Below, in pieces: positions 11,259-60,148 of a DNA stretch of 64,000 nt (its first letter is position 1; each line of letters begins with the position of its first letter). Source of the DNA: Udeniomyces pyricola (Eukaryota; Basidiomycota; Tremellomycetes; Cystofilobasidiales; Mrakiaceae); the NCBI GenBank assembly GCA_039545295.1, contig BCIK01000025.1:331603-395602 (forward strand). Reading direction: 5' to 3'. The notes beneath the pieces are model-generated. The model was not told the DNA's origin. It saw nothing but the letters and a program-made list of their open reading frames with translations, and did no database searches. A program made the position numbers and the translations under genes.

Positions 11259-12380
11259 ATGCCCATCCAAGTACGGTTTAATCTCGTACCATCCTTCCTT
11301 CTCTCTCGGCCCCTCAAAAGATACATCCATCTAGCCAGCTAATTAACCCCCCCCCCCCCTAACCATCGATCACCGACCCGGCTGGACCCTCCTTCCTTCC
11401 AGCACATCGTCGCCTTCGAATACGACCCTGCCAAAGTGACGTCTTCGACCTTGACGACCATCTCTCAAGCCTTTCTTGAGCTCCAAAAGACGTGTCTAGA
11501 TCGCAAGACGAATGAGCCGTACATTGTCAAACTCGTCGGTGGAAAGCAGGATAGTCCGGAGGGGAAGCATCAGGGGATGACGGTACGTTGAAGCATCGAC
11601 ACTTGATGACGAGTCGATGAAGCCAATGGACAAGTAGACAAATTGGGAACGCAAGTTGGGAACGGATTGGATTTGATCGCTGACGAGATGGAAATCTTGG
11701 ACCTAATTTTGGATACGCGGTAATGAATCGATATGGTGATTGGCTCTCCATGACGACTTACTACGCTACAGCATGTCTTTCTCGTTGAATTCAAGGTTCG
11801 TACCCTTGGGTGCCCATTCTGTTATTGACAAAAGCGATTTCTCGATCTTAGCATGTGCAGTATGTGATCGCCGTCGTTTTAGCAAGCTAATAACTCATAC
11901 CGGATCATCTTTCTTTCCTGCAATTTTTTCATCATGATGTTTATCTTTCGACCCTGTACATGTTGATCGTTCTGATCGTACCTGCTCCACACTCAATCAA
12001 ATCATACATATCGCCCCTTGAAACCGTGGACTTGTAACCGTCCACGTTATCGCAATCATCAGACGGAAGCCGACAGACAATACTACCTCGACTCCGATCC
12101 CGCACACATAGCCTTCAAGGTACCCTCTTTTCTTCTTTTTTTTTTCTTTTTCTTTTTCTTCTTCTTTTCTCTCGCATGTTCAAGGATCCTATGGATAGGC
12201 TTGATCGATATATCGTCCGGACGCAGAGACTTTCCTCATTAGGGGACATGAGCACCACATCGATAGCTGATCTCTAACCCCCCCCCCCCCCNTTGTTATC
12301 TTGTGTCTACACGGCAGGCCCTCGTCGGACCGACGTTAAAATCCGCCATCGTCTTGGATTTCACCCAGGACGCTTGGTGA
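11259..12380 (+). CDS. stress-responsive A/B barrel (Dabb) domain protein
   Basis: Five short exons (11259..11270, 11403..11582, 11772..11795, 12063..12119, 12318..12380) give 111 residues, all phase 0. The sequence is MPIQHIVAFEYD, then a helix rich in Leu, then HVFLVEFK, TEADRQYYLDSDPAHIAFK and a final strand ending in VLDFTQDAW. The HVFLVEF / YYLDSDPAH pattern and the length of about 100 residues are typical of Dabb proteins, small dimeric ferredoxin-like barrels in plants, fungi and bacteria. The exact function in fungi is mostly unknown; some relatives are polyketide cyclases. Intron 3 is long (267 bp). Intron 4 contains a C-run and one undetermined base at about 12292. Confidence 0.85.
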
Positions 12381-47872: not shown

Positions 47873-49665
47873 TTACTCCTCTTTCACATCCTCCTCCTCC
47901 TCTTCCTCTTCTTCTCCAGACTTGGCCTGCTTCTCCGCTTCCACGTCACCGCTCTGCTTCTCTCCCTCCTTAGCCACAACCCCATTCTTTTTCGTCTTCT
48001 TCTCCTCTTCCTCAGGCATATGACCCTCCGCCAACATCTTCTCCAACCGCCTCACTTCAACCACACTCTGCGCGCCAGCAATCGCCTTTTTAACCTTCTC
48101 CCTTTCCTCATCCGACATCAACCTCCCCTTGTTCGATCCTCCATGCCCGTTCTCCGTTCCGACCGACTGCTTGGCGCCAGCAGCGGCGGAGCTCGTCGGC
48201 GTACAGAGCGCGACGGCGAGCGCGTTAGGTTGAGAGTTGGGAGGAGCAGTGAGGAAGAGATCGGTCGCGTTGGTACGCTCGGCATCCTTTATGCGATTAA
48301 AGTCGAGGACGTGAAGGCGACCGCCAGCGACCTGAAGAGAGTGAAGCGTCGAAATGTCAAAGGAAAGGGAACGTCAGACGTGAGAGAGAAAGAAGGGAAG
48401 GTGGAAGGGGGGAGACAGAAAGAACAAAGAAGAAGTGCCGAAAAGTACGCGTCAGCTTGATGCTTTGAGAAAGAATATACTCTTTCCCCCCCCCCTTGCT
48501 CCCCCCTCTTCCCCTTTCATATGTCCCCTGCATCAACACGCAGCACGTGATCACAGCCAAACCAGCTCCTGAAGTTTCACCTTCCAGATACAAAACTCGC
48601 GATAGTGCGATTCGTTTTTGACGGGGTTCCCCTGCAAGTTGAGGTACCGCAGGTTGGTGCATGATTCGAGCGGAAGGAGCGACGCGAGGGATGTTATCGA
48701 GTTGCCGCTCAGGGCTGATCGTTCGCAACAACAGAAAGGAGCAAGATGAAATGGCATCAGTGAGTCTGTCGAGACTGGGTGTTGGTCTGAAAGATAGACC
48801 GGGATAGTTGAGGAAAGGAAAAGCAGGAGATTGAGAGAGGGAAAGAGGGAAATGGAGAGCCAAGGGAAACGACGGACTGAGGGTGGTAAGGTTAGGGACC
48901 TGCAGTGGTTCGTCAAGGGTGACAGTGGCAAAACCGAGGGAATGGTAGGTTCAGTCCCAGCTTGACAGGTTCAAACACGCGAAAGGTGGCTAGTCGTGAG
49001 AAGAGCACAGGACGAGAGAGGACAGGTGGGACTGACGTTGGTCGAGATTGAAGAGGCTATCGAACTGATGGAGTTGTTTGCGAGCAGGATCGACCGCAGC
49101 CTGGTCGCTGGACCGCACGCGAGAGAGCAAAAGCGAGGAATGATGAGTACATGATGAGTGATGGGCTGATGGTGATGAAGGGTGACCCGAGTCCCGTCAA
49201 GATGGTGGGCGAAGCGAGTGGGATGGAAGGGTCAAAGAGGAGGGGGGAGGGGGGAAGGGAAGAGAGAGAAGGAACGCACATAGAGGCAAGTTGGCGAGCG
49301 TGGTGAGCGCGTTGTCAGAAAGGTTGAGGGCGTCGTACCCGCCTTGAAACGCGCCAAGGTTCTCGATCGTTTGGATGGCGAGACCACGGAGCTCGAGCTC
49401 GCGCTCCTTGAGGGGGTTGATGCGGGAAGGGGCGCGCGAGACGAACTGTTGAGGCGGGAGGGAGGGATGGATCGAGTTAGTTGGGCGTCGCGACAGATGG
49501 GTGGGTGGACGGAAGGGCCAAATGATTGAGTATGGGTGAGTGGGCAGAGATTGAAGCGATAGAAGAGGAGGAGCAGGGGGAGAATAATGCTGATGATGAT
49601 GATGAGGTGGATGAGTATGAGGATGAGGATGACGATGGACATACGTCGGGAGTGAGCTTGACCAT
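47873..49665 (-). CDS. LEA1: U2 snRNP protein A' (leucine-rich repeat)
   Basis: A multi-exon gene of about 280-290 residues. Exon 1 (49665..49645) is MVKLTPD. Then FVSRAPSRINPLKERELELRGLAIQTIENLGAFQGGYDALNLSDNALTTL, TRLRSILLANNSISSIASSI, VPNLTTL joined to LSGNSITSLASLLPLESC, and NLRYLNLQGNPVKNESHYREFCIWK. These are the leucine-rich repeats and the cap typical of U2A'. The next exon carries VLDFNRIKDAER. The C-terminus has SDEEREKVKKAIAGAQSVVEVRRLEKMLAEGHMPEEEE, the family's conserved helix, then an acidic tail of about ten Glu. The protein binds stem-loop IV of U2 snRNA with U2B'' and helps U2 recognise the branch point. The U2 snRNA gene itself is about 8 kb away in this window. Confidence 0.93.
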
Positions 49666-54783: not shown

Positions 54784-55435
54784 GTGAGTCGTGTGTTTGT
54801 GGTTTATTTCTCTAGGTAGTAGGCGGGTTTGTTTCTTTTGGCTTCTCGGTAGAGATTTGGGCCTGCAAAGTCAATAGAAAAATCGATTTATCTGGTCATG
54901 ATCAAATATATCCTAACGTCTTCAATTGAGTCCCATCCCTTGCCACGTTGATTCCATCGAAACACTTCACTTCGCCCCAATATCGCATCAAACCCTCAGT
55001 CTCCCTCCCATCCCGGCTTTTCAGCCCTCATCGAATCGCCCTTCCCGCTCTTTGGCCGAGTGCACCGGTGCTCTAAAACCACCGCCATTTCCACTTCAAG
55101 GCGCCTGGGCAGCCCCATCCCGCGGGAGCAGCCGTCTCGCAGAGGACGACGAGGAGAGATACCACAACCGACTCCCACCATCGACGTGTCCGCCCAGGAT
55201 GCAACGGTCAAAAGAACATCTCGAGCAAGCGACGGCAATCTCATGGGTGAGTTGGGGAAGCCTAAAATCGAAAAAGGGGGGGGGGGGGGGGTCGATCCAA
55301 CCCGATCTACCTTTTCAGAGGAATTTCACTTCCTTCTTTCACTCACACAACCTTTCCTGTCGTCTTCTTGTATAACCCACGTTTTGTTCACTCGTTTGAC
55401 CGAATATTTTCACCATCAAGTCGCGAAGCGAAGTC

Positions 55436-56605: not shown

Positions 56606-57461
56606 GGGTTGAGAGATTGGTATCGACGTCGTCATAAGGAAGAAGAAAGAAAGAAAGAAAAAAAAGGAAAAGAAGGGAAGAAACCAAAAAGGACTGCAGA
56701 CAGGAGGAGGACCGGGTCTTTTTTTTTTTTTTTTTCTTTGATAATAATGACAATAATAAACAATATCGCGCAGGCTTTTATATATATATATAGCTATAGA
56801 TGAATCGATCTAGAGTGACTTTCATTCTTTTTTTTCTTTTCTTGATGTGTAACGTATAAGTCCAGATTTGAAGATAAATTGATCATGACGACGTTTGATC
56901 ATGAGATGGAAATCGTGATCGCCTGTCGACGTGCAGGACAGGACAGAGGGAGATGTCTCATGATCCGAATCGAGCAGTACACGTGTGTACGTAGTAGTAC
57001 TGTAAGTTGAGGGTAGATGAAGCAAAGATGATTGCTTTACAGTGGCATGCAGCCTGAACTGACTTTGTGCGTGTTGTATTGAAGTAGTGCAGGCAGGTAT
57101 TGCCAGGCTGGCCACTATCAAGTGTCCTGTGAAGTTGAATCCGTGAAAAATGAGTGATGTCGTGCTATCACACACACACACACGTACAACAAATAACAGA
57201 TATCGCTCTGCGAGGGTCATCACGTATCGCGTCGGTGGGTAAGGTCGATTGTATTAGATCGAAGGGTGTGATGAATCGAGGACGACGTTATCGGTTCGCG
57301 ACTGAGAAGGTCGATCGGAATGGAGGGCAGAAGCTAGCCAGCCACATCGCCCTGCCATGGCCTTCTGAAGAGAAAGCCATGCCAGATGCCAAGTGGAGAG
57401 TGGGTAGAAGTAGGAGTGGGTAGGAGAAGTGGGAGGAGGAAGAGGGGGACCCCTGACAACA
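56606..57461. other. intergenic, no gene seen
   Basis: Runs from the stop of the Ser/Pro-rich ORF to the 3' end of U2 snRNA. It contains a T run at 56720-56734, an AT run at 56780-56790 and CA repeats at 57170-57183. The A/T-rich part just past 56.6 kb is probably a 3' UTR. No coding frame supported. Confidence 0.55.
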
Positions 57462-57639
57462 CAAGGCAAGAGTGCAGCGCCAAGGTCATCGTGCCGGGTC
57501 GCTCGTGCAAGCAGAGGAGCAGCCCGACGGGCAAGGCAAAAAGTACAAAACCAGATACGCTCGCGTAGAGCGTATAAAATCGGTTAAAATTTTAAGAACA
57601 GATACTACACATGATCTAAGCCAAAAGGCCAGAGAGGAT
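57462..57639 (-). ncRNA. U2 spliceosomal snRNA
   Basis: The minus strand from 57639 reads ATCCTCTCTGGCCTTTTGGC, then TTAGATCATGTGTAGTATC and TGTTCTT. This is the near-universal 5' end of U2, including the GUAGUA that pairs with the intron branch site. Expected structures follow. Stem I pairs UCUGGCC with GGCUUAGA. Stem IIa is TAAAAT/ATTTTA around TTTAACCG. Stem IIb is ATACGCTC/GAGCGTAT around TACGC. A U-rich Sm-like site, ACTTTTTG, comes next. A GCCC/GGGC hairpin follows, and the 3' domain contains CTTGGCGCTGCACTCTTGCC. The length of about 178 nt fits fungal U2. The exact 3' end is estimated. Its protein partner gene LEA1 is also in the window. Confidence 0.93.
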
Positions 57640-57676
57640 GAGGGAAAAAAGGATGGAGGCGAGGTTTCGAAAGGAA

Positions 57677-57682
57677 TTTATA
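57677..57682 (-). promoter_or_regulatory. TATA box of U2 snRNA gene
   Basis: TATAAA on the minus strand, about 38-43 nt upstream of the inferred U2 5' end. A TATA-like element at this distance is seen at other fungal snRNA genes. The initiation site is inferred, not shown. Confidence 0.55.
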
Positions 57683-57836
57683 CGGTGGAGAAAGGAACGG
57701 ACGGTGGTTTCGACAAGATCGTGACTCTCTTGCTCGCCGTTGGCTAGGCGATAGCGAGAAACTCTCGGCCCCGTGGACGACTCACAGCCCGTTGTGCTTA
57801 GCGAACTCGGAGGCTAGCGTCTTGTGACATGGGAAG

Positions 57837-57839
<3 letters not shown>

Positions 57840-57891
<52 letters not shown>

Positions 57892-58251: not shown

Positions 58252-58288
<37 letters not shown>

Positions 58289-60148
58289 CCTTCTGCAGAT
58301 CGGGTTCTATGAGCTTTTTTTTTACACCTACAAACAACGTGTCAACGTTCCTCATCAGCAGGTCGGTAAGGCGAAGGACCGTCAGGCCTAAAGATTGAAG
58401 TCCGGCTGACGCGATTTTCCTCCTTATAGCACGCGGAACGTTCCGTGTTCAACGTTCAACCGGGGGGAATTGGTGACCGATAAACCTGTGTGGACATGAG
58501 TGGACATGAGTGAACATGTGTGGTGGTTTGATGTCGATCGATGTGCCTACAAAGACCACAGACCATCTCCTACCCGTCGAGAGTGATTGATACCTGATGA
58601 CTGCTGATGCGCTGATGATGGGGACCTGTCTGTACCTGGGTCTGTCAGAGATCTGAGATTACATCCCCTCATGTTACACTATTGAAGGCGACAGTACCAT
58701 GCAGGATGCTGTACCAACATGGAGCAGCCGATAGATATATGAATGTCGAAGCGACGTCTACAAATAAACGATTCTGAGGATCTGAGGGGGGACGACGAAT
58801 GAACACGAGCTCGTGCATGGCCGGTCCCCCAGACAACCCTTCTAACTGACAAATCACCTGCCCTTGAAAACGACTCGCCCCCCTTTCCCCCTTGCCCTTT
58901 TTCTTCCATCACTGGAGGAGGCTCCTTTAGGACCTCACTGCGGTTCCCTTCGTTTCTCCAAGAAGGGAGCCTTCCTGAACTTCAGGAGAACCACATTCCC
59001 CCCAACGTCGCTTTGTATATTGCTCCCTCTCTTTGGTCGTGTGCGCTCTTGGCTTACTACCTTGTGGCGTAGGGCCAGAGGTCCTTGGGAGTCTTCCCAA
59101 CCCAAGGGCTTTGGGAATGGACGTCGGACATCTTTTTGTTATGTCACGTTATTATCTCATGTTGCCTTGCTCCGATATATCACGTTATTGAATCAAAGTG
59201 GTTGAGGTCACGAAAATAACGATGAGGTTCTAGTTGGTATGACCAGCGGTCGCGATGTTTGAATCAGATCGAGCCAGTCGCGTCGGTGCTCTCAACTTTG
59301 GCTCGCATGCCAAGTTCATATGCGCGCTTGCCCCTCAACACGCTCGATCCTCTCATTCTTCCCCCACCGGTACTGCAGCTCTCTCATCATCGTCCCATGG
59401 CCCTCATCGACCGTCAATTAACCTCGTCTCATCTACACCTCGCAACAATCTCAACACAGTCATGCTTACGACTGTTACCTCACTCCGCGACCCCCGCACA
59501 CGTGTTGCCGAAACTTCGGCCTGCCAAAACTCCCCGAGCAGGACCCCCCTGTTTCGACCTGACTATTCCGGGCTCACACGTCCATGCCCAGGGCGACGTC
59601 GACTTCCCCAGGGCATGGAACCCCTTTTCTCCCCCCCCCCCCCCTCCTCCTTTACTTTCCCACTTGATGATGAACATGTCATGCATAAAAACAATCTCGA
59701 GAAAGAGTGTCGTTCTCATTGACTTTATACATCTTGGCTCTCTGGATCCAACGACCATATCTATCCTCTCTCTATATTGCTCTGTCCGAATAGTTGTTCT
59801 CTTGTTTCCCTCGCCCGGCACTCACGGGTGGTCGAGCCCCCCCTTTTTTGGCATCCCTTCACCGCGCAGTGGTCGACCGGCTGACCCCTAGATATCCCCA
59901 AGATCGCACTCCATATATACTCCCCTTACCAACGGGCCATCACCCATCACTCCTCGTTCCGACCTGCGAATCAGAACGTCATTGCTTTGGTATTACCTGT
60001 TTGCCCCTGCTCCCTTTTGAACCCCCTGTGCGAGCTGGCTCACATCTTCTTTTTCATAATCCGTTCGCTCTTGACCCACACTCCATCTTCACTGCCCGTC
60101 TTCACACACTTACGCCCCTCTTCGGTTGACCATCGCCGGCTCGGCAGC
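57909..60148. other. 2.2 kb without a supported gene
   Basis: No frame is convincing. Overlapping ORFs at 59255-59891 share the same DNA in different frames and look like CT-rich leader of the next gene. GTGGACATGAGTGGACATGAGTGAACATG is a short direct repeat at about 58490-58520. GGAACGTTCC with AACGTTCAAC lies at 58435-58460. No tRNA or 5S rRNA pattern was recognised. Confidence 0.5.
58254..58288 (+). repeat. poly-T tract
   Basis: 35 consecutive Ts, about 350 bp from the poly-G tract. A long A tail on the minus strand could mark a retrotransposed 3' end, but no recognisable element lies beside it. Confidence 0.9.

Follow-up and report, generated by a model that had tools for sequence, protein, structure and literature searches.

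The U2 snRNA gene of Rhodotorula hasegawae, a basidiomycete, reportedly contains an mRNA-type intron, an observation said to go back to Takahashi et al. in 1993. In contrast, the U2 copy that we encountered on the minus strand of the window (the whole stretch of DNA analysed here, 64 kb in length) matches the Rfam U2 model from end to end with small insertions only, and therefore does not call for an intron. Six U2 genes with five isoforms have been described in Drosophila, together with concerted evolution of multi-copy snRNA genes (PMC4291461). The present genome resembles Drosophila in having several U2 copies that show few differences, but the host is a basidiomycete and the two main forms are set apart by two compensated pairs in stem IIb. 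Among the matches listed, we found no paper in the open-licence literature that, judging from its title or the opening of its abstract, deals with U2 genes of the Cystofilobasidiales or with linkage of U2 to LEA1. The analysis adds a well-supported U2 gene family for an apparently little-studied basidiomycete order. Besides a candidate U2 promoter element, this family offers natural stem IIb covariation in one genome and a decayed copy for comparison. With respect to splicing, the window copy is an ordinary, well-supported family member.

The U2 locus in the window

When all 64 kb were searched with Rfam (cmscan), U2 was the sole match at gathering level. The match (57448-57639, minus strand) covers positions 1-192 of the 192 in RF00004, is not cut off and scores 111.7 bits (gathering threshold 46, E 9.4e-22). 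This full-length match above gathering, which is the check that the earlier note had proposed for the minus strand, together with the pairing of the rebuilt stems, bears out its claim of a genuine U2 gene that has not decayed. The span it gave, 57462-57682, starts at the TATA box and stops 14 bases short of the 3' end of the model. The parts of the locus are as follows.

57448..57639, minus strand: U2 snRNA gene body, nucleotide 1 at 57639 (Rfam RF00004)
57603..57608, minus strand: GUAGUA, nucleotides 32-37, which we take to be the U2 branch-site recognition element (read from the sequence)
57589..57594, minus strand: 5' arm of stem IIa, UAAAAU, nucleotides 46-51 (Rfam alignment)
57575..57580, minus strand: 3' arm of stem IIa, AUUUUA, nucleotides 60-65 (Rfam alignment)
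57568..57574, minus strand: 5' arm of stem IIb, GCUC form, nucleotides 66-72 (Rfam alignment and copy alignment)
57556..57562, minus strand: 3' arm of stem IIb, GAGC form, nucleotides 78-84 (Rfam alignment and copy alignment)
57537..57544, minus strand: Sm-site-like run ACUUUUUG, nucleotides 96-103 (Rfam alignment to the consensus AUUUUUG, from which the run departs)
57677..57682, minus strand: TATA box TATAAA, first base 43 bases upstream of nucleotide 1 (sequence and copy alignment)
57701..57725, minus strand: conserved upstream element GTCACGATCTTGTCGAAACCACCGT, candidate promoter element (copy alignment)

All 192 model positions are represented in the window copy, which resembles RF00004 in its branch-site element, stem IIb and 3' stems and has standard pairs only in stems I and IIa. 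It differs from the model in that stem IIa is composed of A and U only, the loop reads UUUAACCG where the consensus has UUUAAuAu, the Sm-like run ACUUUUUG stands in place of AUUUUUG, and four model pairs are non-standard. The Sm-like run, aligned to the consensus of the Sm-binding site expected past stem IIb and ahead of the 3' stems, is the same in all six intact copies in the genome, as is GUAGUA, which the earlier note had rightly described as a perfect branch-site element; a decayed copy on contig C12 has GUAGCA instead. Nucleotides 1-10 of U2 (5' end AUCCUCUCUG) form Watson-Crick pairs at eight of ten positions with CAGAUUGGAU of the U6 encoded in the same genome, a pairing that was equalled in 1.4% of cases when the U6 tail was shuffled 3000 times (P 0.014). 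It occupies the position of U2/U6 helix II, between the U2 5' end and the 3' part of U6. On the basis of what is established for U2, the window gene would be transcribed by RNA polymerase II from its TATA box and conserved upstream element, and its RNA would assemble with Sm proteins, U2A'/U2B'' and SF3a/SF3b. In a functional particle GUAGUA would be expected to pair with the branch point, and the U2 5' terminus with U6 in its 3' part.

Stem I of the aligned window copy has standard pairs throughout. The earlier note regarded the A/U helix of stem IIa (UAAAAU/AUUUUA) as compensatory, and this holds against the Rfam consensus, from which three of the six standard pairs differ on both sides, but not within the genome, since all six intact copies carry the same stem, without covariation. 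Stem IIb was also said to be intact, and its pairs do hold save for the innermost model pair, which is non-standard. Here the copies vary at pairs 69-81 and 71-79, which remain paired in all seven full-length loci: the window, C14 and C12 have G69-C81 and U71-A79, the rarer form, and C3, C7, C10 and C19 have A69-U81 and C71-G79, as does a 3' piece of U2 on C13. These are copies and not independent events, and a single change followed by duplication or conversion could account for the two forms.

Stems IIa and IIb are both missing from the unconstrained minimum-energy fold of the 192-nucleotide RNA by itself, although protein-free folding of a single strand is a weak test; stem IIa by itself is barely stable (-0.6 kcal/mol at best), and an isolated 48-nucleotide piece folds into stem IIb with ACCG/UGGU predicted in place of stem IIa. 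Support for the predicted stems IIa and IIb is provided by the Rfam model and by covariation, not by folding energy. Stems IIa and IIc are described as exchanging and mutually exclusive in PMC8516221. The window RNA can form five contiguous pairs of stem IIc (AACCG/UGGUU), a number also reached by 18% of 20000 shuffles; the idea that a stem IIc toggle compensates for the unusual loop of stem IIa was dropped because this complementarity is not above chance.

U2 copies across the genome

The genome searched comprises 25.0 Mb in 38 contigs, and the counts of U2 loci are lower bounds. The Rfam model detected at least seven full-length matches, distributed over seven contigs, with scores of 113.5, 113.1 (four copies), 111.7 (the window) and 86.9 bits, so that the window copy ranks sixth of the seven and lies 1.4-1.8 bits under the other five intact copies. 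Querying the genome at DNA level with the U2 unit located at least ten places, namely the seven full-length loci, two 3' pieces (on C13 and C3) and one 5' piece (on C3), which we count as six intact copies, one decayed copy (C12), two copies cut by N runs and one fragment. Those other than the intact copies are listed here.

C13:483375-483531: 3' piece of U2, with the 5' part in an N run
C3:1008435-1008522: 3' piece of U2, with the 5' part in an N run
C3:1005846-1005973: degenerate 5' piece of U2, 2.5 kb from C3:1008435-1008522
C12:200016-200207, minus strand: decayed full-length U2, likely a pseudogene

The description of the window copy as "the functional gene" does not survive this census of at least seven full-length loci, six of them intact, in which five of the six others score 113.1-113.5 against 111.7. 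Most of the other copies found score slightly higher, as the earlier note had allowed for, but the window copy is itself intact. The C12 copy, which judging from its sequence is likely a U2 pseudogene, has 13 differences from the window copy, including the change of GUAGUA to GUAGCA and a base deleted at nucleotide 39.

An alignment of the seven full-length loci, with means calculated from the six intact copies, gave a mean pairwise divergence of 1.3% over the 186 columns of the RNA body. In the flanks, taken in blocks of 100 columns, the corresponding values were 22.8% next to the body and 27.5% farther out on the upstream side, and 20.3% next to the body and 16.6% farther out on the downstream side. 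Such low divergence in the body would be produced either by purifying selection on the RNA or by gene conversion confined to it. Similarity to the family in the 3' flank ends at about 300 bases in the window copy and at about 500-930 in the others, the flanks being shared patchily over about 0.5-2 kb, which segmental duplication fits. Besides contigs carrying U2 loci, two flank queries matched the end of C31 and, in two short stretches, C11. A mobile-element carrier for U2 was considered and rejected, as no element was identified in the flanks or in a Pfam search of ten window sequences (LEA1 and nine ORFs), where LEA1 alone gave matches. Rfam detected no RNA besides U2 in 12 flanking stretches (119 kb) of the six other full-length loci.

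The upstream regions retain common elements. TATAAA, which the earlier note had recognised as a TATA box at 57682-57677, is present in all six intact copies and is replaced by TATAAG in C12, and the 25-base element GTCACGATCTTGTCGAAACCACCGT is found with small variation in all seven full-length copies. A 14-base core of this element (with one N) has ten exact matches in the genome, eight of which are at U2 loci (one being the 5' fragment on C3); at the other two, the 46 bases that were searched show neither TATAAA nor TATATA. If one mismatch is tolerated, the core has 49 matches, including the ten exact ones covered by the TATA check, against 35 for a reversed-pattern control. Words of 7-9 bases occurring upstream of at least four U2 copies were also sought before U4 and U6. 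Those of the conserved element were absent from the stretches of 300 bases that precede the matches to U4 (two) and U6 (four), and a promoter element common to snRNAs was rejected, the words shared with U4/U6 being only C runs or short, for example CGCCTCC.

LEA1, the assembly and the alternative readings

The window also encodes U2A', as the earlier note had claimed in placing LEA1 within 8 kb of U2.

47873..49665, minus strand: LEA1 / U2A' gene, six exons, 290 aa (hand-built gene model)
49645-49665, 49280-49445, 49037-49107, 48878-48899, 48581-48714 and 47873-48331, minus strand: exons of LEA1

Among database proteins the product best matches Phaffia rhodozyma U2A', at 69% identity across 84% of the query, and then Mrakia frigida (67% identity); these matches put the fungus close to the Cystofilobasidiales. 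The Pfam domain LRR_9, an N-terminal leucine-rich repeat domain of U2A' type, is matched with 152.7 bits (cut-off 30.5), and the best nine PDB matches are all U2A' chains, among them 3jb9 chain j (U2 snRNP A', E 1e-44). Nothing notable differs from known U2A'; the C-terminal tail is acidic. A six-frame search found LEA1 in single copy, and since it matches nowhere else in the genome the other U2 loci are without it. The gap to U2 is 7783 bases, and within it the plus strand has three ORFs that begin with ATG (224, 576 and 369 codons), which are candidate genes.

It is highly likely that the window copy belongs, as an intact member, to a dispersed multi-copy basidiomycete U2 family and that its nearness to LEA1 is due to chance. 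Its membership is supported by the full-length covariance match, the other full-length loci in the genome, the constrained RNA body, the pairing stems (with IIb co-varying), the U2-U6 complementarity and the retention of the TATA box and upstream element in the intact copies; the points against this reading are a G at nucleotide 146 in common with the decayed C12 copy, the lower score, the short 3' flank, the off-consensus Sm-like run and the folds. A recently silenced copy or young pseudogene that still looks intact, with other copies supplying the U2 of the cell, would also be in keeping with G146, the sixth rank by score, the shortest shared 3' flank and a homopolymer of 52 bases about 200 bases upstream. 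This is unlikely, however, because the window body has few differences (one from C14 and five from each of C3, C7, C10 and C19 over 186 columns, four of the five being compensated changes in stem IIb), its promoter elements are intact, and decay as seen in C12 amounts to 13 differences and reaches the branch-site element. An assembly artefact, whereby U2 copies or flanks were misjoined at homopolymers or between haplotypes to create a linkage near the contig end, is very unlikely. It would find support in the homopolymers of 16 (55276-55291), 17 (56719-56735) and 52 bases (57840-57891), in the N runs that break two other U2 loci and in the last 1328 bases of C31 (C31:311000-312327), which match window positions 58274-59601 at 98.1% identity and stop in an A/T tract beside U2, about 0.6 kb upstream. 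This match would fit a duplication as well as a second haplotype or contigs that overlap but were left unmerged, and a further U2 copy may lie beyond the end of C31. On the other hand, U2 stands between LEA1 and the overlap, and no N is present between LEA1 and U2, the single non-ACGT letter of the window being at 12292.

Selection could instead keep LEA1 and a U2 copy together, for example for co-regulation of U2 RNA and U2A', and the presence of single-copy LEA1 so close to a U2 locus has a chance of only 0.4% (seven loci) or 0.6% (ten loci) if uniform placement is assumed. That chance nevertheless rises to 4-6% for any of ten U2 snRNP genes and to 35-46% for 100 spliceosome genes, both numbers being assumed; three plus-strand ORFs intervene, and the other U2 loci lack LEA1. 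Kept linkage is the least probable of the readings considered. Only slightly more credible, and slightly less so than an artefact, is the proposal that dispersed genes produce U2 in two isoforms, with stem IIb as GCUC/GAGC or ACCC/GGGU, and that the rarer-form window copy next to LEA1 might differ in expression or be dosed with U2A'. Under the family reading preferred here, the linkage, which the earlier note held to be unusual, is a mild coincidence given that there are seven or more U2 loci, and as it was picked after the fact it is treated as probably coincidental. It is a case of one of many U2 copies lying near single-copy LEA1, and a functional explanation is unneeded. Where an snRNA copy is found near a gene for a protein of the same particle, the other copies should be counted before a functional link is read into it.

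U6 and other small RNAs

Neither the Rfam U1 and U5 models, whose search controls were equally silent and whose families may be merely divergent, nor a pattern combining a TATA box with the U1 5' end gave a match in the genome. U6 is represented by four Rfam matches and U4 by two. One U6 and one U4 gene are 0.5 kb apart on the same strand (C18:115486-116209), and a second pair lies 4.3 kb apart on opposite strands (C18:9871-14444), the U6 match at C18:9871 being without a 3' T-run and damaged-looking. Downstream of two U6 genes, the 3' part of U6 is partly repeated within about 120 bases. A sub-threshold match to Fungi_U3 (43 bits, gathering threshold 95, E 7.1e-8) occurs about 0.8 kb from a U6 gene, at 411-660 on the minus strand of a U6-locus stretch.
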